A program made the translations under genes and the position numbers. DNA of 64,000 bases from Anatilimnocola aggregata (lineage in GTDB: Bacteria > Planctomycetota > Planctomycetia > Pirellulales > Pirellulaceae), in contig NZ_CP036274.1 of assembly GCF_007747655.1 (NCBI RefSeq), positions 1,240,001-1,304,000 of the forward strand, given 5' to 3'. Of the stretch, positions 34,958 to 42,754 are shown one piece after another; positions within the stretch are counted from its first letter, which is position 1; each line of letters starts with the position of its first letter. The notes beneath the pieces are model-generated. The model ran no database searches. It was not told the DNA's origin and saw nothing but the letters and a program-made list of their open reading frames with translations.

Positions 34958-36190
34958 TTATTTGCCTTTGGGCTTGGGGCGCGAGAGGAAGCCGAGCCAG
35001 CTGGCGTTTTTGCCAGCGCCGGCGGCTGCAGCAGCGGGGTCGACGTCTTTTCCTTTTTCGTCGCGGCTGAGGGTATCGGCCAGCGTGATGAAGGCCTGGG
35101 TAATGCCAGCCTTGGGCGCTTGTTCGATGAGCGGGACGCCGTTATTGCGAACTTCGACCATCGTGCGGTAATCGTTCGGCAGTTGCCAGAAGATTTCGCG
35201 ACCCATGGTCTCTTGGGCCTTCTTCAAACTGATTTCGCCGCTGCCGAGCCCGACGCGATTGACGACGATTTTGACTTTGTCTTTCAGACCTTCGACTTCG
35301 CCAAACGACATCATTAACCGCACAACGTTTCGCAAGCACGGCAGGTCGAGCTGCGTGACGAGCAAAATGTCTTTGGCACTTTTGAGCGCGACGAAGTCGA
35401 GTTCGCTGTAGCTCTTCGACAGGTCGATGATCAGGTGCGTGAAGGTCGCCTTCAGCAGGCCAAGCACGCGCGTGAGATCGTCGGGCGTGACGAGTGAGGC
35501 ATCTTGCAGTTGCACGGGGCGAGGCAACAGGTAAAGCCCCGAGCTGTGCTTGGTGAGCGAACGTTTGAGCAGCGAGAAGTCGAGCCGCGAGATGTTCTGC
35601 GCGACATCGACCAGGGTGTAATCGGGAATCGCGTCGAGGAAGACGTCGGCATCGCCCAGGGCCATGTCGAGATCGACGAGGACGACGGAGTTGCGAGGTT
35701 CGGAAGCCAGGACGCAGGCCAGGTTGACCGCAGCCGACGTGGTGCCCACGCCGCCCGTAGCACCGGCCACGGCGATGACATGGCAGCTGCGGGTGCCGCC
35801 ACTACCACCACCAAACTTTTGTGTACTGATGCGATCGACGGCCGAAACGAGATCTTCGACGCGCACGGGCTGAGTGAGAAATTCTTTCGCACCGGCGCGC
35901 ACGGCTCGCAGGATGACCTGGCCATCGTTCGAAGAACTGACGACGAGGATCGCACATTCGGAGCTGGTATCGCGGAGAGTCTCGACGAGCTTCAAACCCT
36001 TGTCGGGATTGCTGTCGATGCAGACGATGCCGATATCGGGCTTGGTCTGGGTGACGACGTCGGAGAAAAACTCGTAGCGTGAGCACTCCGCCTCGAGCCA
36101 GACGATATCGAGGCCCAGCAGCATATTCTTCAGCGCGGTGCGCGAAGTATCGCTGGGGTCGACGATCGCAATTCGAAGCACATTGCTCAT
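34958..36190 (-). CDS. tadZ: TadZ/CpaE pilus-assembly MinD-like protein
   Basis: The protein has 410 aa. Residues 1-120 are a receiver-like domain (IAIVDPSDTSRTALKNML, IGIVCIDSNPDKG, AGAKEFLTQPV) with a Gln where receivers have the conserved Lys, so it is a pseudo-receiver. Residues 135-370 form a MinD/ParA ATPase fold with an altered P-loop: GATGGVGTT at 143-151 has Thr in place of both signature Lys residues, which is usual for CpaE/TadZ. VLVDLDMALGD (Walker A' region) and LIIDLSKS follow. The C-terminus is Ala/Pro/Lys rich. In Tad systems this protein localises the secretion machine at the pole. It is the last gene of the leftward pilus cluster. Confidence 0.88.
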   Translation of the reverse strand: MSNVLRIAIVDPSDTSRTALKNMLLGLDIVWLEAECSRYEFFSDVVTQTKPDIGIVCIDSNPDKGLKLVETLRDTSSECAILVVSSSNDGQVILRAVRAGAKEFLTQPVRVEDLVSAVDRISTQKFGGGSGGTRSCHVIAVAGATGGVGTTSAAVNLACVLASEPRNSVVLVDLDMALGDADVFLDAIPDYTLVDVAQNISRLDFSLLKRSLTKHSSGLYLLPRPVQLQDASLVTPDDLTRVLGLLKATFTHLIIDLSKSYSELDFVALKSAKDILLVTQLDLPCLRNVVRLMMSFGEVEGLKDKVKIVVNRVGLGSGEISLKKAQETMGREIFWQLPNDYRTMVEVRNNGVPLIEQAPKAGITQAFITLADTLSRDEKGKDVDPAAAAAGAGKNASWLGFLSRPKPKGK

Positions 36191-36391
36191 TTCTACGGAC
36201 CAGCCTCACGAGGACAGGGTCAGACCAACATTGGGTAGCGTCGCTGGCAGAAGTAAGTCTTCGACCAGAAACGTTGCCTCTATGTAGATAGGTCGGAAAA
36301 CGCGGGCAGGCGAGTGAGCGACGTTTAGATTTTCATACCAGGAGGCGTGCAAGCGACGGTGGTTGTACCGCCGCCCGGAGGAATCGTTGTG

Positions 36392-38122
36392 TTACTTCAA
36401 TTCGTCATAACCGAGCGGACCGATCAAGGCGGGCCGAGCTTGTTGCGACGGCTTGGGAGCCTGAGCGGTGCGAGCAGCGGGTTGGCTGCTGCCGGCATAG
36501 TACGAATAGTTGCCATTGGTCGCCGGCTGCGGTGCCGACGATTGCAGGGCAGTTTTAACGCCTGTGCCGGTCGCAACGGTGCGAGCGGGTGTGCCGCTAT
36601 AGCTGGGCTGTGCGGCCGGAGCCGAAACCTGGCGACTGACGGGCTGCGTGGTCTGCGGGCGGTTCGATGAGGCACCGTAAGGAGCACTGAAGCCAGGCTC
36701 AAGTTCTTCAGGAGTGCGGATCGGGGCACCAGTCGAATCGCAGTTGCCACTGTCGCACTTCTTAGGTACTTCCAGGTAGCCGCGATAGTAGAGCTCCACG
36801 TCTGTGGGGCTGGCAGTCGTTTGACCAGGGCCACAGGCGGGGACTTCGTTCGGGTCCATCGCTTCGGCGAATTCAGGGGTGACCAGGATCACAAGTTCCA
36901 CTTCGTTCTGCCGCTCTTGCACGTGCCGGAAGGGAACGCCGAACCACGGCAGATCAGCCAGCCAAGGAATACCGCGATTGGAAGCTTCGGTGCGGGTATA
37001 GACCAAACCAGCGATGGCCAGTGTTTGACCGGCCCGCATTTCGACACCCACATCGGCCCGGCGTTGGCGGAAACCAGGGATGCTGGTGCCGTTCAAGTTG
37101 ACCGACAAGCTGTTATCGAGTTCGGTAATCTGCGGGCGGACTTCCAGGCGAACCAGGCCGTTGCCCAGCACGATCGGTACGAAGTCCACCTGTGTGCCGA
37201 ATTCGCGGTATTGAATCGTGACCGTTCCCAGGCTTTGTGGCACGAGAATCGGCACTTCACCACCAACGTTAAAGCTGGCCGGGCGGCCGTTGAGGGTCGT
37301 GAGTGTTGGTTCAGCGAGCAGCTTGGCCAGGTTATTCTGGCGGAGCAGTTCGAGGAAGCCGTAGAACTGAGTATTGCCATCGACAATGCCGAAGCGAACC
37401 GTCGAGGGGCCAGCGGGCGTCGTGGCGATCCCCGCACCGACACCAGCGGTCGCCGCGAGTGCGCCGCTCACGCCTTGCGAGATGAAATGGTTGCTACCGA
37501 CGCTTGCCCAGTCGACGCCAACGGCCCGCAACTTGGTGCGCGAGACTTCCATGATCTTCACATGGAGGAGAACTTTCTGCACACCGCCGACCGTGAGGTT
37601 GTTCACAATCTGCGGGAAGTAGTCTTGCGCGATGCGAGTGATCTGCGGCACCATCTCGGCCCGTGGCACGAAGCCGGTGACGAACAGGCTGCTATTGAGC
37701 GGGCGGAGGCGAACGTTCGCTTCGGGGAATTCGGTCTTGAGGATCAAGTCGAGTTCCTGCACGTCACCCAGAATCACGAGGTCGATGGACGTGACCTTAC
37801 CCTTGTCATCCCAGACGTTGACTTGCGTTACGCCGGCGCGGATCGCCGAGATCTGCACGCTGCGCGGCGAGATCGGAATCACGCGGACCAGGTCCGGGTT
37901 GTTCACCAGCATCTTCGGCACGTCGAATTCGAATTCGAGAATGCGGCTGGTGTTGACAGTCATCTCCAGTCGTTCAGCGGCGCCTTGCACCTTGAACTTC
38001 ACCCCTGGAGCTGCCAGTGGTTCCTGCGCACAGAGCGAGGCAGGTGGAATGAGGATCGCACCCGCGGCCAGTACCGCGCAGGCAATAAGGGCGTAAGTAG
38101 CCCGAAGCCATGATTTTGCCAT
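36392..38122 (-). CDS. rcpA: Tad/Flp pilus secretin (RcpA/CpaC)
   Basis: The protein has 576 aa and forms the outer-membrane channel of the Flp pilus. The signal peptide is YALIACAVLAAGAILIPPASLCAQ. The amino domain TSRILEFEFDVPKMLVNNPDLVRVIPISPRSVQISAIRAGVTQVNVWDDKG is the pilus-assembly N1-type domain, and LNSSLFVTGFVPRAEMVPQITRIA a BON-like segment. The secretin core follows: RNNLAKLLAEPTLTTLNGRPASFNVGGEVPI, YREFGTQVDFVPIVLGNGLVRLEVRPQITELD and GQTLAIAGLV. The last 120 residues are a Pro/Gln/Ala/Ser-rich low-complexity tail, longer than in most CpaC proteins, ending IGPLGYDELK. About 200 bases separate it from tadZ downstream. Confidence 0.92.
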   Translation of the reverse strand: MAKSWLRATYALIACAVLAAGAILIPPASLCAQEPLAAPGVKFKVQGAAERLEMTVNTSRILEFEFDVPKMLVNNPDLVRVIPISPRSVQISAIRAGVTQVNVWDDKGKVTSIDLVILGDVQELDLILKTEFPEANVRLRPLNSSLFVTGFVPRAEMVPQITRIAQDYFPQIVNNLTVGGVQKVLLHVKIMEVSRTKLRAVGVDWASVGSNHFISQGVSGALAATAGVGAGIATTPAGPSTVRFGIVDGNTQFYGFLELLRQNNLAKLLAEPTLTTLNGRPASFNVGGEVPILVPQSLGTVTIQYREFGTQVDFVPIVLGNGLVRLEVRPQITELDNSLSVNLNGTSIPGFRQRRADVGVEMRAGQTLAIAGLVYTRTEASNRGIPWLADLPWFGVPFRHVQERQNEVELVILVTPEFAEAMDPNEVPACGPGQTTASPTDVELYYRGYLEVPKKCDSGNCDSTGAPIRTPEELEPGFSAPYGASSNRPQTTQPVSRQVSAPAAQPSYSGTPARTVATGTGVKTALQSSAPQPATNGNYSYYAGSSQPAARTAQAPKPSQQARPALIGPLGYDELK

Positions 38123-38249
38123 CCGTGTGCTTCCTTGCGAATCAGTTTGTTTGCGGGTCTCTTCCGTGCGATCCTGCTCGTCACTCGTAGGCGGGTTTAT
38201 CCGAAACCCGTGCTCCAGTCTCGGAGAGACTGGACTACGACTAGCGAAC

Positions 38250-39326
38250 CTATTCGGTCATCCAGACCGGCCGTCGCTCCAGCAAATAGCCAGGGCGATG
38301 GATGTTACCTGCACCAGCGGCGGGAACCGATGCAGGTGGAGAACTCGAACCGGATGGACCGGCCGAGAAAACGGTACTTTCCTGTGGCATGCTGGTGCGG
38401 TTCTGCCACTGGTATTGCTTCACTTCACTGTTCGTATAAATGTGCATGGTGTAGCCGGTGTCGGGCTCTGGTGCCACGGTCGGTTCAATGTTCTGGCTGG
38501 CCTTGGCCACAGCTTGCATGCCTTTGCTCAGCATGTCGAGCAAGCCCGGACCATTTGCAGGAGCGGCAGGAGCCTCGGCAACTTCAGGAGTTTCTTCCTC
38601 TTCACTGTCGAGCGAATTCCCCTTGAGGATGTCCGCCAGTGGTGTCACGCCGTCTTCCTTTTCGTCGCCCGTTTCGTTCGGATGACGCAGGGCCAACGTG
38701 ACGCGGCCAATTTGAATGGCACCGGTCAGGTCGCGCATTTGTTCGGGTTTGACGAGGAGCGAAACGGTGCGAAACGTCGCTTCCTGTCCTTTTGGATCGA
38801 TCACCTTTTCGGTATTCGACCCGACGGCGAACACGCGCACTGCACGCATGATCGTGTAGACGCCCGACTCGCGAATTTCTTCGCCGCGGCGAACGTAGAG
38901 GTTGATGTCGACCCGGTCGCCGGGCGAGATCCCTCGCATCACGGTGTCTTCTTCCACTCGCACCGGCATGGCGCGATAGCCAGCGGGAATGAGGGGAGCG
39001 ACAGCGCCAATTTGATCGGTGATTTTCTCGAGCAGAATCGGTTCGCCTTTGACGAACCGCTGCCGAGCGAACTTGTCTTTCAGTTCGTCGAGATTGCGAA
39101 CGGCACCTTCCGGCATCTTGACCTTCGGCCAAGGCTCGAGCTTGACGTTTTGCGCATCGAACGCAGAGTTGATATCGAGATCTTTGATGGTGACAAGAAT
39201 CGGTTCCATCTCGATTCCCGCCCCGCCAGCGTTGGCCTTGCGGTCCATGACCTGGCTTATACCGATCGATGCGACCAGGCCACAGCCTAGGGCGATGAAA
39301 ATCAAGATCAGCGACTTCATCCGCAT
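38250..39326 (-). CDS. cpaB: Flp pilus assembly protein CpaB/RcpC
   Basis: 358 aa from the ATG at 39326, where the single N-terminal membrane helix begins (LILIFIALGCGLVASIGISQV); the longer frame to 39419 has no support. The periplasmic part has an SAF/beta-clip domain: VTIKDLDINSAFDAQNVKLEPWPKVKMPEGAV, QRFVKGEPILLEKI and YRAMPVRVEEDTVMRGISPGDRVDINLYV, followed by the TVSLLVKPEQMRDLTGAIQIGRVTLALRHPNE region. The C-terminus is Pro/Ala/Glu rich. RcpC probably binds peptidoglycan or stabilises the secretin. It sits immediately upstream of the secretin gene in transcription order. Confidence 0.88.
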   Translation of the reverse strand: MRMKSLILIFIALGCGLVASIGISQVMDRKANAGGAGIEMEPILVTIKDLDINSAFDAQNVKLEPWPKVKMPEGAVRNLDELKDKFARQRFVKGEPILLEKITDQIGAVAPLIPAGYRAMPVRVEEDTVMRGISPGDRVDINLYVRRGEEIRESGVYTIMRAVRVFAVGSNTEKVIDPKGQEATFRTVSLLVKPEQMRDLTGAIQIGRVTLALRHPNETGDEKEDGVTPLADILKGNSLDSEEEETPEVAEAPAAPANGPGLLDMLSKGMQAVAKASQNIEPTVAPEPDTGYTMHIYTNSEVKQYQWQNRTSMPQESTVFSAGPSGSSSPPASVPAAGAGNIHRPGYLLERRPVWMTE

Positions 39327-39425
39327 CGAAAAATTCCTACTGACGATTGGTCCGCGTAACGAGCACGCGACGAACAAAAAATCCTCAAACCTTACCCAGC
39401 CCATCCAAAGACTGGTCAATCTTCG

Positions 39426-39908
39426 CTACTGGACTGTTTCCCGACGCATTGTCGTGGTTGCAGTCATGCTTTTTCCCCCAAGGTACATTGGCGATGGCAG
39501 CCAGCTGACTTGATTGAAAGGAACCGTCACCGTAACACTGACAGGACTGCCATAAGCGGCACTGCTAGGCGGACTAGGATTAACCGTTACGTTGCTCGTG
39601 GTGATGGTGATGTTGCCACTCGCCATCGCATTGATCGCAGCTGTCTGGGTCGACGCCGTCGTCGAACCGTCGAGTACCGCGACCCGGCAGCCTTCTCGGG
39701 CCGCATTGGTGATGATCTGTTGGACCATGACCATCCGGCCGTATTCGATCATGCCGAATACGAGCAAGAAGAAAACCGGGGCAACCACGGCAAACTCTAC
39801 GGCAGCTGCTCCCCGTCGTTGTTTTCGGAATAACCGGCAGGGTTTAACAAGTTTCTGAACCAGCAGCGACAAAGTTTGCGTGGTAAGCATAGTCAACCCT
39901 TTCGTCAA
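39426..39908 (-). CDS. tadE: TadE-family minor pseudopilin
   Basis: The protein has 160 aa; the ATG at 39908 or the one at 39890 may be the start. The TadE-like segment RRGAAAVEFAVVAPVFFLLVFGMIEYGRMVMVQQIITNAAREGCR shows the prepilin-type cleavage context (G-A-A-A-V-E-F), the hydrophobic helix and the conserved NAAREG. The rest is Thr/Ser-rich with beta pattern (NITITTSNVTVNPSPPSSAAYGSPVSVTVTVPF). TadE and TadF pseudopilins are needed for Flp pilus assembly; no separate TadF gene is seen here. Confidence 0.9.
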   Translation of the reverse strand: MTKGLTMLTTQTLSLLVQKLVKPCRLFRKQRRGAAAVEFAVVAPVFFLLVFGMIEYGRMVMVQQIITNAAREGCRVAVLDGSTTASTQTAAINAMASGNITITTSNVTVNPSPPSSAAYGSPVSVTVTVPFNQVSWLPSPMYLGGKSMTATTTMRRETVQ

Positions 39909-39938
39909 ATCTTCTCAGCCTTACCCACTTGATGACTG

Positions 39939-40508
39939 CTAAATCAGCAGACCCGCCAAGAGGAAGTAGACAATCGTCCCGATAGCGATAGGAATGCCGT
40001 AGGGCAGCAACAGCATCGAAGGTTTACGCTTCGCGGCAATCTGTGCTAGCTGTTCGGGATTCCGAATCACGGTGATCTCGTTGAGGATCAGCCAGAACTG
40101 ATCCGAGTGCTTCTTCCAGGCCCGACGCATCAGTACCATGGCGACGGCGAGGATGGCGCCGACAATGGTAGAGAGTGCGAAGGCATAGAGAGTGTGTGTG
40201 CCATAGACCCAGGCTCCGACGCCCGCTAGCAACTTGACGTCGCCAGCACCCATGCCACCGATGGCATAAGCAGGTAGCAAGAGGAGCAGGCCGACCACGG
40301 TGCCAGCCAGGCTCCAGGCCAGTCCTTCCCAACCGAACGCCACGCCGCTGTAAATCCAGCCGCTGAGGATGAAGGGGAATGTGACCCAGTTGGGCACTTT
40401 CAGTTCAAAGCCATCGATGACGGCGGCCAGAATGAGGACCACCGTGACCAGCCACACCGTCCAGTGCTGGGCCATGACTTCCCCCAGCGCGGCGAACGTA
40501 TCGAGCAT
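39939..40508 (-). CDS. tadV: prepilin peptidase TadV/CpaA (A24 family)
   Basis: The protein has 189 aa from ATG 40508 (seven more codons are possible to 40529). It has six membrane helices. Catalytic aspartates of the A24 aspartic peptidases are in VLILAAVIDGFELKVPNW and in GGMGAGDVKLLAGVGAWVYG (G-x-GD-x-K-L). It lacks the N-terminal methylase domain, as expected for the short CpaA/TadV type. It would cleave the leaders of the Flp pilins encoded just upstream and of TadE. Confidence 0.9.
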   Translation of the reverse strand: MLDTFAALGEVMAQHWTVWLVTVVLILAAVIDGFELKVPNWVTFPFILSGWIYSGVAFGWEGLAWSLAGTVVGLLLLLPAYAIGGMGAGDVKLLAGVGAWVYGTHTLYAFALSTIVGAILAVAMVLMRRAWKKHSDQFWLILNEITVIRNPEQLAQIAAKRKPSMLLLPYGIPIAIGTIVYFLLAGLLI

Positions 40509-40607
40509 TGTACGAATCTCCAAAAACAAGTCCGCTCCTCGGCAGTCGCGCCGAGGCTTGATTGAATTGCAGTCGTCACAGGCCGGCGCGTGCCGGCTTG
40601 GCGACCA

Positions 40608-40715
40608 TTAACGCATAGCCAGGAACCAGCTCACGAGAGCGGCCGCAGCCGTGAAAACGTAGCACATCATTTCCCAGCTGCCGATCAAAACCTCAGCAGG
40701 AACTACCGGATACAT
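40608..40715 (-). CDS. small predicted membrane protein in the tad cluster
   Basis: A 35-codon frame lies between flp1 and tadV: it starts MYPVVPAEVLIGSW, continues through EMMCYVFTAAAALVSWF and ends LAMR before TAA. The second half is one hydrophobic helix flanked by a negative N-side and positive C-terminus. A GTG three codons upstream is an alternative start. No ribosome site stands out. Placement in a 310-base gap of an otherwise compact operon and the membrane-like composition support it; short length limits certainty. It could be a small subunit or regulator of the pilus machine. Confidence 0.45.
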   Translation of the reverse strand: MYPVVPAEVLIGSWEMMCYVFTAAAALVSWFLAMR

Positions 40716-40825
40716 AGCAATCACTTCTGCGTTAATACTTGATCACGAAAATGACAAACATTGGTTTTGGCCAGCGAAGCAGCAGGAGCAACCGCGGACT
40801 GCTTCGCAGGATCGAACCGACCGAC

Positions 40826-41011
40826 TTACGAACCGCCACCGGTGCCGAGCTTCTGAGCAACGGAGTTGAACGTCACGTTGGCGTTCGTACCGATCGCTTG
40901 AATGGCCGTGAGGCAGACGATGACGATCAGGGCGAGCATCACCGCGTACTCGACAGCGGTAGGACCATCTTCCGACTTGAGAAACGTCTTGACCTGGTTG
41001 AGCAACTTCAT
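40826..41011 (-). CDS. flp: Flp/Fap pilin (flp1)
   Basis: The protein has 61 aa and is a full-size Flp-type prepilin. It starts MKLLNQVKTFLKSEDG; cleavage after Gly precedes the mature end PTAVEYAVMLALIVIV. The Glu-Tyr pair of the Flp motif (V-E-Y) is present. The C-terminus reads NATFNS-like (NVTFNSVAQKLGTGGGS). The core is nearly identical to the other two pilins. An AAGGG precedes the ATG. Pilins of this type polymerise into bundle-forming adhesive Flp pili. Confidence 0.93.
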   Translation of the reverse strand: MKLLNQVKTFLKSEDGPTAVEYAVMLALIVIVCLTAIQAIGTNANVTFNSVAQKLGTGGGS

Positions 41012-41326
41012 GACTAGACCCTTATGTGCGAAAAGCTTCTTGTGCGTTGTTGCGGTGCCATCTCAGGCATCGCAGCTGGGGCCGAACAATCGTTCCCTGT
41101 TTGAACTGTAGGTCAGGAAAACGGCGCACTTCGCAAAAAAGACTGATGAAAGTTGCTCCGAGTGCCGGAAGGGCGTTGGCCGCAGAGTGACGACATGTCG
41201 ACTCTTCGGCGTGGAACAACGGGCTCGCAGCACGAGCCCGCACAGCCGGCTTGGGCCAAGACATGCCTCGTGTAGCGGTGGGAGTGGCCAGGTACGGCCA
41301 TCCCACCCCTACATCCGGCAAGGCAG
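41012..41326 (-). other. structured leader between flp2 and flp1
   Basis: No gene is supported in these 315 bases. Several stems are visible: GTAGCGGTGGGAGTGGCC pairing with GGCCATCCCACCCCTAC (41272-41312, one bulge), and GGGCTCG/CGAGCCC (41221-41239). Neither has a T-tract on the minus strand. A T6 run on the minus strand occurs at about 41135-41140 without a good stem. The hairpins may stabilise the upstream flp2 mRNA 3' end. Confidence 0.5.
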
Positions 41327-41536
41327 CTACGATCCGCCCCCCGCAGGGAGCACGGTCGCAATGCTATTGAACGTCGCGTTGGCGTTCGTGCCGATGGCCT
41401 GAATGGCCGTGAGGCAGACGATGACGATCAAGGCGAGCATCACCGCGTATTCAACGGCGGTGGGACCATCTTCCGACTTCAAAAAGCGGACGACAGAGTC
41501 AAAGGAGCGAACGACCGATGGCGAGAACTTTTGCAT
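41327..41536 (-). CDS. flp: Flp/Fap pilin (flp2)
   Basis: The protein has 69 aa from the ATG at 41536, which has GGGGGT a few bases upstream; the longer frame to 41605 is not supported. It starts MQKFSPSVVRSFDSVVRFLKSEDG, so its leader is eight residues longer than in flp1, and the mature part starts PTAVEYAVMLALIVIV. The C-terminus is NATFNSIATVLPAGGGS. It is the middle of three tandem pilins, separated from flp3 upstream by about 300 bases that include a strong terminator. Confidence 0.93.
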   Translation of the reverse strand: MQKFSPSVVRSFDSVVRFLKSEDGPTAVEYAVMLALIVIVCLTAIQAIGTNANATFNSIATVLPAGGGS

Positions 41537-41839
41537 GGTAAGACCCCCTAAACAATCAACAACACGATGGCAAACTTGGCAACGTCGTTGAGGGTGATCA
41601 ACCAAGGGCTAACGGACAATCCTGAACAAGCCAACCAGCAGCCCGCAGTCACCTGTCGCTCCCTGGCAAAGAGAAGGGGTGAGGACCCCGGTGAACATGC
41701 AAGCGCAGTCGCCTGGCAGGAGCAACAGCGCGCGAAAAAGAGCCCCCTCGCTACATCCTTGCGGGACGGCAGCGAGGGGGCCTTGATGTCAAACAGCCGA
41801 CGTCAACTGGTGAGAGCAACTCACCAATCGAGCTCGCGG
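41537..41839 (-). other. flp3-flp2 intergenic region
   Basis: About 300 bases without a gene. It contains the terminator at 41735-41781 and a GGGGT/ACCCC small hairpin near 41675-41690 inside a segment (CCCTGGCAAAGAGAAGGGGTGAGG) that looks like a common interspersed palindromic element. A separate promoter for flp2-flp1 may lie between the terminator and flp2; none can be named with confidence. Confidence 0.45.
41735..41781 (-). terminator. intrinsic terminator after flp3
   Basis: Read on the minus strand, an 11-bp perfect stem GCCCCCTCGCT / AGCGAGGGGGC (41742-41752 with 41771-41781, 18-base loop) is followed by TCTTTTTCG. It stands 59 bases after the flp3 stop and should end most transcripts, leaving flp3 mRNA separate from the downstream pilus genes. 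Confidence 0.85.
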
Positions 41840-42028
41840 TTACGAGCCGCCGCCAGCTGGCAACTTGGCCGCCACGCTGTTAAACGTAGCGTTCGCGTTC
41901 GTGCCGATCGCCTGAATGGCGGTCAAGCAGACGATCACGATCAGAGCCAGCATCACGGCGTATTCCACCGCGGTCGGGCCATCTTCGGAAACCAGGAAAC
42001 GTTGCACTTTCAAAGCGAGATTCTTCAT
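41840..42028 (-). CDS. flp: Flp/Fap pilin (flp3), first gene after the riboswitch
   Basis: The protein has 62 aa from ATG 42028, with an AAGGA ribosome site six to seven bases upstream. It starts MKNLALKVQRFLVSEDG; the mature end begins PTAVEYAVMLALIVIV and the C-terminus is NATFNSVAAKLPAGGGS. This is the promoter-proximal pilin: it is preceded by the long leader with the c-di-GMP riboswitch and followed by a terminator. It is the likely major pilin on that ground (inference). Confidence 0.94.
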   Translation of the reverse strand: MKNLALKVQRFLVSEDGPTAVEYAVMLALIVIVCLTAIQAIGTNANATFNSVAAKLPAGGGS

Positions 42029-42225
42029 TTGTTCCTTCTCCAGTTCGGCGGTCCGGCGAACGAGCGTCCGCCGGAATACCATCCGACACCAAAACAGCCG
42101 GCGAGTCTCACCCGATGCGAGCAGCACGCCTGGAAGGGCGCACTGCCGGCCTGCCTTGGCACCGGGCTACGACTCAAACATCAACACTGGAAGCTCGCCT
42201 CGCCATCGTCTCGATCATTGCCAGG

Positions 42226-42262
42226 AAAAAATGCGGAGCCCGGAGTTTAACCGGACACCACA
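42226..42262 (-). terminator. riboswitch expression-platform terminator
   Basis: On the minus strand TGTGGTGTCCGG (42262-42251) pairs with CCGGGCTCCGCA (42243-42232) through a 7-base loop, with one T-T mismatch and two G-T wobbles, and runs straight into TTTTTT (42231-42226). The first four bases, TGTG, also form the 3' arm of aptamer stem P1, so the two structures compete. Confidence 0.75.
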
Positions 42263-42386
42263 GTCCCATCCGTTCGGCAGCCAGGCTACCGTAATCGTGC
42301 GCTCGCTTCGTAAAAAGCGAGACCCAACCACGGCCCTTTGCTTTGCGCCCCGGCATTACTACCGGTTTGCCCTTCTCGGGGATGTG
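42259..42386 (-). promoter_or_regulatory. cyclic-di-GMP-I (GEMM) riboswitch aptamer
   Basis: The minus strand carries the GEMM-I elements in order. P1 5' arm is CACATCCC (42386-42379). AGGGCAAACC follows (42373-42364), with the ligand-specificity guanine (G20 in Vc2 numbering). P2 is CCGGTA-GTAA-TGCCGG (42365-42350) with a GNRA tetraloop. The core joining strand is GGGGCGCAAAGC (42351-42340), including the intercalating adenine of GCAAAG. P3 is elongated, with an inner CTCGCTT/AAGCGAG hairpin. Then GGTAGCCTGGCTGCCGA (42290-42274) forms the P3 receptor side and C-C-G ligand site, and GGGACTGTG (42267-42259) closes P1 with one bulged base. It lies 231 bases upstream of flp3 on the same strand, so it should control pilus genes. 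Confidence 0.88.
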
Positions 42387-42754
42387 AGGCGGCAGGCCCA
42401 ACCGGCCAGCGCCACCGGAGTTCCAGCCGACACAGCCGAAGCCGCGCCGGTGCAGAACTGAGGCAGAACCAACCGGGCAGAGGTCAGCAGCCGTTAAGCC
42501 ACCAAACTCCCTGCACAACTGAAACCTATGTCAGCTTTGCGCGGTGTCAAATTCTGTGCTTGAGAGAATCTTGAGGAGTAGCAGCAATTTTTCTCGTCAA
42601 CGAAGCCCGACCGGTGTCGGCCGTGACGGTGGTAACGCTTCGCCGGAGGAGAGGGATTGCAGATGTCGCGGATTGCAGATTGCAGATCCAGGAAGAACCA
42701 GCGATGCTGTGACTCCTTGATCTCAATCTGACATCTGCAGTCTTTAATTCCTCC
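42387..42754. other. intergenic region between flp leader and trmH
   Basis: Holds the promoter region of the flp transcript (read leftward) and of the rightward methyltransferase gene. Three copies of ATTGCAGAT occur at 42656-42664, 42672-42680 and 42679-42687, just before the methyltransferase gene. No gene is supported. Confidence 0.45.

Follow-up and report, generated by a model that had tools for sequence, protein, structure and literature searches.

The window that we analysed, a stretch of 64,000 nucleotides from Anatilimnocola aggregata, carries on its minus strand a Tad/Flp gene cluster. The cluster begins with three Flp pilin genes with Flp_Fap matches (flp1, 41840–42028; flp2, 41327–41605; flp3, 40826–41011) and continues with genes for a prepilin peptidase (Peptidase_A24, 39939–40529), a TadE-like protein (39426–39908), RcpC/CpaB (38250–39419), a CpaC-like secretin (36392–38122) and a TadZ-like protein consisting of a receiver and a ParA-like ATPase (34958–36190), whose TadZ_N match falls under its cut-off. 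The Flp pilin, prepilin peptidase, TadE, RcpC/CpaB and secretin matches were all over their Pfam cut-offs, as befits a Tad/Flp locus. TadA, TadB and TadC were sought as T2SSE or T2SSF matches and none was found within the window (Tad cluster 34958–42028); elsewhere in the genome there are 13 T2SSE and 22 T2SSF matches, in clusters. A Shine-Dalgarno sequence, GGAG (42041–42038), precedes the flp1 start codon (42028–42026), and an intrinsic terminator consisting of a hairpin and a T run (41728–41790; −35.1 kcal/mol, z −4.8) follows the gene. The predicted flp promoter comprises TTGACA (42550–42545), a 16-base spacer and TAGGTT (42528–42523), and between this promoter and the first of the three pilin genes lies an RNA element that had been described preliminarily as a c-di-GMP-I (GEMM) riboswitch aptamer at 42259–42386 on the minus strand, 231 bases upstream of the flp1 ATG (42028). 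This distance is correct.

Both the family and the strand given in the preliminary description proved right. When the 64-kb window was searched by cmscan with the Rfam models, which is the check that had been proposed, RF01051 (c-di-GMP-I) was the sole match above the gathering score (42381–42273, minus strand), with 59.8 bits against a cut-off of 35 and an E value of 3.4e-9. Other Rfam families gave only weak matches in the leader, to eukaryotic models and at chance level. The genome of 9,007,740 bases contains this one copy of RF01051. Because a regular expression for the aptamer overlooked clear copies, we used instead a covariance model, R1, built from 51 aptamers (our own and 50 of 52 relatives, L114 and L117 being omitted); with this model the aptamer scored 76.7 bits and was the single match in the window up to an E value of 10. 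All of the motifs that had been named are present, namely AGGGCAAACC, P2 with its GTAA loop, GGGGCGCAAAGC and GGTAGCCTGGCTGCCGA. P2, which is capped by this GNRA tetraloop, was paired in 99.5% of alignment cells, and P3 carries a long insert. A 114-amino-acid open reading frame (42174–42518) overlaps the aptamer.

The contact residues of the Vc2 aptamer are G20, A47 and C92 (PMC4744006). All three bases are present here, in AGGGCAAACC, GCGCAAAGC and CTGCCGA, respectively, as placed by motif against the Vc2 sequence. For comparison we examined 131 of the 132 RF01051 matches in the Pirellulaceae (G061:C321 was left out). Position 20 was G in 128 of the 131 copies, our own included, in agreement with the guanine that had been assigned to this specificity position, and A47 was A in all 131 when counted from the alignment, the tetraloop being able to mislead a plain pattern count. 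In one copy linked to flp (L071, genome G115) position 20 is A, which is characteristic of cGAMP-sensing GEMM variants.

Since some GEMM variants sense 3′,3′-cGAMP or other dinucleotides, we considered whether the ligand might be one of these. The related model for the GGC variant, c-di-GMP-I-GGC (RF03167, of the same clan), comes close, with 58.8 bits. However, this falls short of its cut-off of 59, and the RF03167 consensus has G in place of A47, where our aptamer and all 131 family copies have A; we infer that 'GGC' in the name of that family stands for G20-G47-C92. Position 20 is likewise the canonical G rather than the A of the cGAMP-binding GEMM-Ib aptamers, and we therefore regard a ligand other than c-di-GMP as very improbable. 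The nine GGDEF and two EAL matches over cut-off in the genome make c-di-GMP plausible as the ligand. With a score over the c-di-GMP-I cut-off, the contact bases, a P1 helix at the ligand site and P2 with its GNRA tetraloop, the element at 42381–42273 is by score and contact bases a true member of the c-di-GMP-I class, and would be expected to bind c-di-GMP.

The P1 helix had to be revised. The two strands originally proposed for it, CACATCCC and GGGACTGTG, are present as strings and yet do not form the conserved helix; we rejected this pairing because a locus from the same genus (L125) has GGATGAACTGTG, which breaks the GGGACTGTG side. The P1 that is kept in relatives is CATCC (42380–42384) with GGATG (42267–42271), where 42384–42380 pairs with 42271–42267. 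This helix was paired in 83.3% of cells, with two-sided changes in four of its five pairs.

RF01051 occurs in 85 of 149 Pirellulaceae genomes and in 44 of 68 genera, and its lack of a match in the other 64 genomes under strict filters, some of these genomes being incomplete, implies that the switch seems to be dispensable. A search for the same RNA upstream of flp genes in other planctomycetes, as proposed in the preliminary description, found it repeatedly. A same-strand Flp gene follows 76 of the 131 family copies, its start codon lying 114–349 nt past the aptamer, and no opposite-strand Flp gene was found within the fetched flanks of the 131. A flp-linked copy is present in 73 of the 85 GEMM-bearing genomes, and in 46 of the 55 genomes from which just one copy was fetched, this copy is at flp. 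The first open reading frame could be scanned in 50 of the other 55 family copies, and encoded a response-regulator receiver in ten, TadE in eight, Tad in two and Tad_C in one. Elsewhere in the order, 17 of 18 sampled GEMM-bearing genomes had a flp-linked copy. In the rest of the class, Flp followed the aptamer in 5 of 21 loci, which came from 21 of 44 GEMM-bearing genomes, two of them being cut by contig ends (L263, without Flp, and L268, which like L261 has Flp). At the level of the phylum, none of 30 loci kept from 132 GEMM-bearing genomes had Flp after the aptamer according to an HMM built from the Flp pilins of the family, which distant pilins could escape. Thus the pairing of flp with the aptamer is order-wide and conserved far beyond chance.

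The same association was found from the side of the pilin in named Flp loci, which were the best 80 of 389 relatives. Model R1 detected the aptamer in 45 of these, on the Flp strand in every case (45/45), and 43 of the 45 aptamers start upstream of the matched Flp gene at a distance of at most 414 nt; the exceptions are L146, in which the aptamer is farther upstream, and L145, in which it is downstream of Flp. Named carriers include Lacipirellula limnantheis, Bythopirellula polymerisocia, Adhaeretor mobilis and Blastopirellula marina DSM 3645, and in Botrimarina hoheduenensis about 0.9 kb separates the aptamer from the matched Flp gene downstream.

The wording 'leader of the Tad/Flp pilin operon' in the preliminary description was right about the pilin and too strong about the operon, because the hairpin of −35.1 kcal/mol and T run after flp1 imply that direct control would act on the first pilin. 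A terminator after flp was detected in 46 of 75 flp-linked copies, our own included, compared with 6–13 of 75 in shuffled sequences. Given these terminators, flp1 is probably transcribed for the most part as a separate mRNA.

The promoter is common to flp genes that have the aptamer and those that lack it. TTGAC-N16-18-TAGGTT has one match in the window, against 0.03 expected. A looser version of the motif was found before Flp in 41 of 43 GEMM-containing and 35 of 37 GEMM-less loci among the best 80 of 389 relatives, whereas 1.8 of 80 were expected after base shuffling. Within this set the promoter was 5′ of the aptamer by 60–211 nt in all 41 GEMM-containing matches, and the distance from promoter to ATG was 335–552 nt with the aptamer and 108–381 nt without it. 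The common form is TTGAC-N17-TAGGTT, usually with TGAC right before TAGG. A scan with the sigma-70 consensus did not pick up the flp promoter. The strong conservation of this element at flp genes of both kinds could mean that a sigma factor is dedicated to it.

Comparison of the leaders also suggested a long-range interaction outside the Rfam model. Strand a, GGCCTGC (42392–42398), which lies in the 5′ flank of the aptamer, is predicted to pair with strand a′, GCAGGCC (42148–42154). The latter is inside a downstream hairpin, Y (42103–42175), formed by GAGTC (42175–42171) with GACTC (42107–42103) and GCCCGGTGC (42167–42159) with GCATCGGGT (42118–42110), which encloses an inner hairpin, Z (42121–42147), along with a′. 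Since a′ is inside Y and pairs with a, the a–a′ helix crosses Y and would constitute a pseudoknot. A second, more weakly supported pairing joins strand b, GCCTC (42386–42390), to strand b′, GAGGC (42197–42201, read 42201–42197); it was paired in 72.6% of cells and had two-sided changes in four of its five pairs.

An initial scan for the longest helix between flank and leader gave 17.4 compared with 16.2 for swapped partners (sd 0.32) in all 76 flp leaders, and 17.8 compared with 15.0 (sd 0.39) in the 55 other copies. The swap test for a–a′ used 64 non-redundant leaders (37 class A and 27 named) from a set of 88, with the 31 class B leaders excluded. The highest-scoring helix that joined the 5′ flank to the leader gave 19.03 in the real leaders and 17.22 (sd 0.31) when partners were swapped, and none of 5000 swaps reached the real score. 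In an alignment of 36 rows, A2, consisting of our own leader and 35 of 38 references that passed filters on length and helix score (L009, L158 and L184 were omitted), a–a′ was paired in 97.2% of cells and had two-sided changes in four of seven pairs, these rows having been preselected for the helix; 19 cells were changed on both sides, compared with 3.4 in shuffles. Matched changes include GGTCTGC/GCAGACC, GGCCTGT/ACAGGCC, GGCCCGC/GCGGGCC, CGCCTGT/ACAGGCG, TGCCTGC/GCGGGCA and GAGCCTGC/GCAGGCTC. Among the 45 class A leaders, 34–38 pair at each core column of a–a′, and the remainder are unpaired in that alignment. The arms of Y were tested in the same way in 47 leaders and scored 20.35 against 15.27 (sd 0.42) for swapped arms, with 0 of 5000 swaps reaching the real value, although Y is short in some leaders.

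The two strands could in principle be half-sites for a protein, that is, a DNA inverted repeat rather than an RNA helix, and the limited variation of the core CCTG/CAGG is what such sites would lead one to expect. However, the two-sided changes agree base for base, with GC, AU, UA and CG all found at the outer pair, and the arms flanking a′ covary across the 47 leaders as a set. In addition, leaders that have the same promoter and no aptamer are nearly devoid of exact pairs. Among the best 80 of 389 relatives, an exact 7-bp a–a′ helix occurred in 21 of 41 GEMM-containing leaders, compared with 2.1 in shuffled sequences (in one of the 21, L151, the 7-bp pair is at a different place), and in 2 of 35 GEMM-less leaders, compared with 0.6 when shuffled, both of these being A/T-rich and closely spaced. 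The a–a′ helix therefore goes with the aptamer rather than with the promoter or the gene, and we consider the DNA repeat an improbable explanation. Thus many Flp leaders are predicted to share a covarying long-range pseudoknot, GGCCUGC...GCAGGCC, that links the 5′ flank of the aptamer with the interior of a hairpin downstream.

Several other leaders showed related arrangements. Class B leaders (31 copies, with a second pilin type) are built differently from class A. By eye, CAGCCTTG in class B could pair with CAAGGC or CGAGGCTG; L015, L028, L050, L107 and others have GCCTTG 5′ of the aptamer, and in many copies two downstream strands (CAAGGC or CGAGGCTG) are each a possible partner for it, an arrangement expected of a switching pair. 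Three aptamer-less leaders (L142, L179 and L181) have a 6-bp GCCTGC/GCAGGC match, seen by eye, with GCAGGC within a hairpin, and in L142 and L181 a long T run follows this hairpin. In copies that are not linked to Flp (e.g. L005, L014, L070 and L078), the 5′ flank pairs with a strand near the start codon (CTCAGG...CCTGAG), and this pairing could mask the ribosome site.

Classical transcription attenuation is one way in which such a leader might act, and the A. aggregata leader contains a hairpin, X, followed by T6 (42226–42262) that resembles a terminator. On this reading X and T6 (42262–42226), or else a structure that precedes TTTT at 42094, would be a ligand-controlled intrinsic terminator, as in the pilM (ON) and Cd1 (OFF) GEMM switches (PMC9262584). 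X has an 11-bp stem with one mismatch, a 53-nt piece containing it folds at −22.0 kcal/mol, and in the predicted fold the T tract is paired with the 3′ strand of P1, so that this alternative fold could couple P1 to X. An equivalent hairpin in the genus-mate is followed by a weaker T tract and is terminator-like in part. Whether the leaders as a group are enriched in such signals depended on the detector: one that also finds the terminators clearly after flp reported a hairpin and T run in 24 of 76 leaders, compared with 5–11 in shuffled sequences, whereas a simpler detector reported 18 of 64 against 16.4 (sd 3.2), which is no excess. When 40 leaders were viewed by eye, few had a T run directly 3′ of a hairpin at the place of X. 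We rejected an ON attenuator in which P1 has strands in common with X and T6, as this arrangement is not general and the conserved P1 lies outside the core of X. Intrinsic terminators thus do not appear to be general in these leaders, and we judge control of flp1 by attenuation to be unlikely; a species-level attenuator that uses X and T6 is possible.

Masking of the Shine-Dalgarno sequence was considered as a second output. In predictions for 36 leaders, forcing P1 and P2 to form caused no consistent shift in Shine-Dalgarno accessibility (10 up, 14 down, p = 0.55), nor did also holding out a and a′ (11 up, 17 down, p = 0.23). We therefore rejected masking of the Shine-Dalgarno sequence by the aptamer, and with no consistent change in accessibility translational control gains no positive support from these predictions.

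Comparison among relatives thus supports the predicted promoter, the aptamer, P1, the a–a′ pairing into Y, the Shine-Dalgarno sequence with flp1 and the terminator after flp1, and on this basis we propose the following mechanism, in which ligand binding and P1-driven formation of the pseudoknot are deduced from sequence. Transcription would start right after the promoter, near 42516, giving a leader of about 490 nt. Binding of c-di-GMP at the P1/P2/P3 junction would stabilise P1, and closure of P1 would position strands a and b such that a–a′ could dock on hairpin Y. The change in the leader would then set flp1 output via translation or the stability of the mRNA, and not through a general intrinsic terminator, and the level of c-di-GMP would in this way govern pilin supply and attachment. 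We consider it probable that a canonical c-di-GMP-I riboswitch lies in the flp1 5′ leader, with a pseudoknot-linked output on flp1 as proposed.

Attachment is usually favoured by high c-di-GMP, and bacteria of the Pirellulales are often surface-attached. High c-di-GMP would most likely lead to more flp1, that is, an ON switch, although this sign is favoured only modestly and on purely biological grounds. The same riboswitch could act with the reverse sign, such that c-di-GMP reduces flp1 expression. Vc2 and Cd1 are OFF switches of this kind (PMC9262584), whereas Vc1 (PMC4744006) and pilM (PMC9262584) are ON switches, and we regard the OFF sign as a tangible yet doubtful possibility.

The riboswitch class has been described in general (PMC7266159), and GEMM riboswitches, including their use at pilus genes, are already known (PMC9262584). 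The leader studied here shares with the c-di-GMP-I examples of RF01051 (GEMM-I; Vc2, Vc1 and Cd1) the core, the contact bases, P1, P2 and P3, the GNRA tetraloop and the place in a 5′ leader; it differs in being before a Flp pilin gene and in having a covarying pseudoknot and hairpin Y outside the Rfam model. In Clostridioides difficile, type IV pili are likewise under c-di-GMP riboswitch control. That switch is a class II riboswitch, so that both the aptamer class and the pilus differ from the flp1 case. The Geobacter cGAMP riboswitches, such as that of pilM, which we take to be part of another pilus system, also place GEMM RNA ahead of pilus genes. These RNAs differ by a G20A change of the cognate base (PMC6274999). 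Thermogutta terrifontis, a planctomycete related to Pirellula, carries RF01051, which is listed there without gene context, leader structure or a pilus link (PMC5673643); it was the sole planctomycete for which we found RF01051 mentioned in the open-access literature. Our failure to find a GEMM pseudoknot platform or a Flp/Tad–GEMM link in planctomycetes described in the open-access literature agrees with the preliminary description, whose author knew of no published account of the pairing. The aptamer class is known, and we regard the leader around it as a new variant.

If the proposal is correct, an RNA gives c-di-GMP direct control of pilin supply in the Pirellulales, in which we found no such control described. 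The 46 of 55 single-copy family genomes with the aptamer at flp would provide a one-target test system, and the leader with its covarying pseudoknot offers a candidate for a novel kind of link between a GEMM aptamer and gene expression. A broader view is held tentatively, at somewhat under an even chance: the leader may represent a new GEMM platform, in which a c-di-GMP-gated pseudoknot controls the pilin mRNA with neither a general terminator nor simple masking of the Shine-Dalgarno sequence, and the aptamer may have been rewired across the Planctomycetota, to pilin and Tad proteins in the Pirellulales and, in some of the distant lineages, to sigma factors of the FliA/WhiG type.

A sigma factor gene follows the aptamer in 7 of the 30 phylum-level loci, picked by eye (L215, L223, L226, L227, L231, L234 and L238). 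Sigma factor regions 2, 3 and 4 were found in all seven, and FliA_WhiG was over its cut-off in the four tested (4/4). This suggests that in distant Planctomycetota genes for motility or development are under the control of riboswitches. Divergent pairs of aptamers about 0.9 kb apart were seen in two genomes (L005/L051 on contig C84 of G068 and L014/L074 on contig C98 of G100), with no Flp gene after any of these aptamers in the fetched flanks. Some genomes are rich in the element: G197, G218, G269, G300, G342, G363, G394, G404, G420 and other f46 genomes have at least 10 c-di-GMP-I copies, some of which are in tandem, e.g. G363:C1:2195100-2195293.
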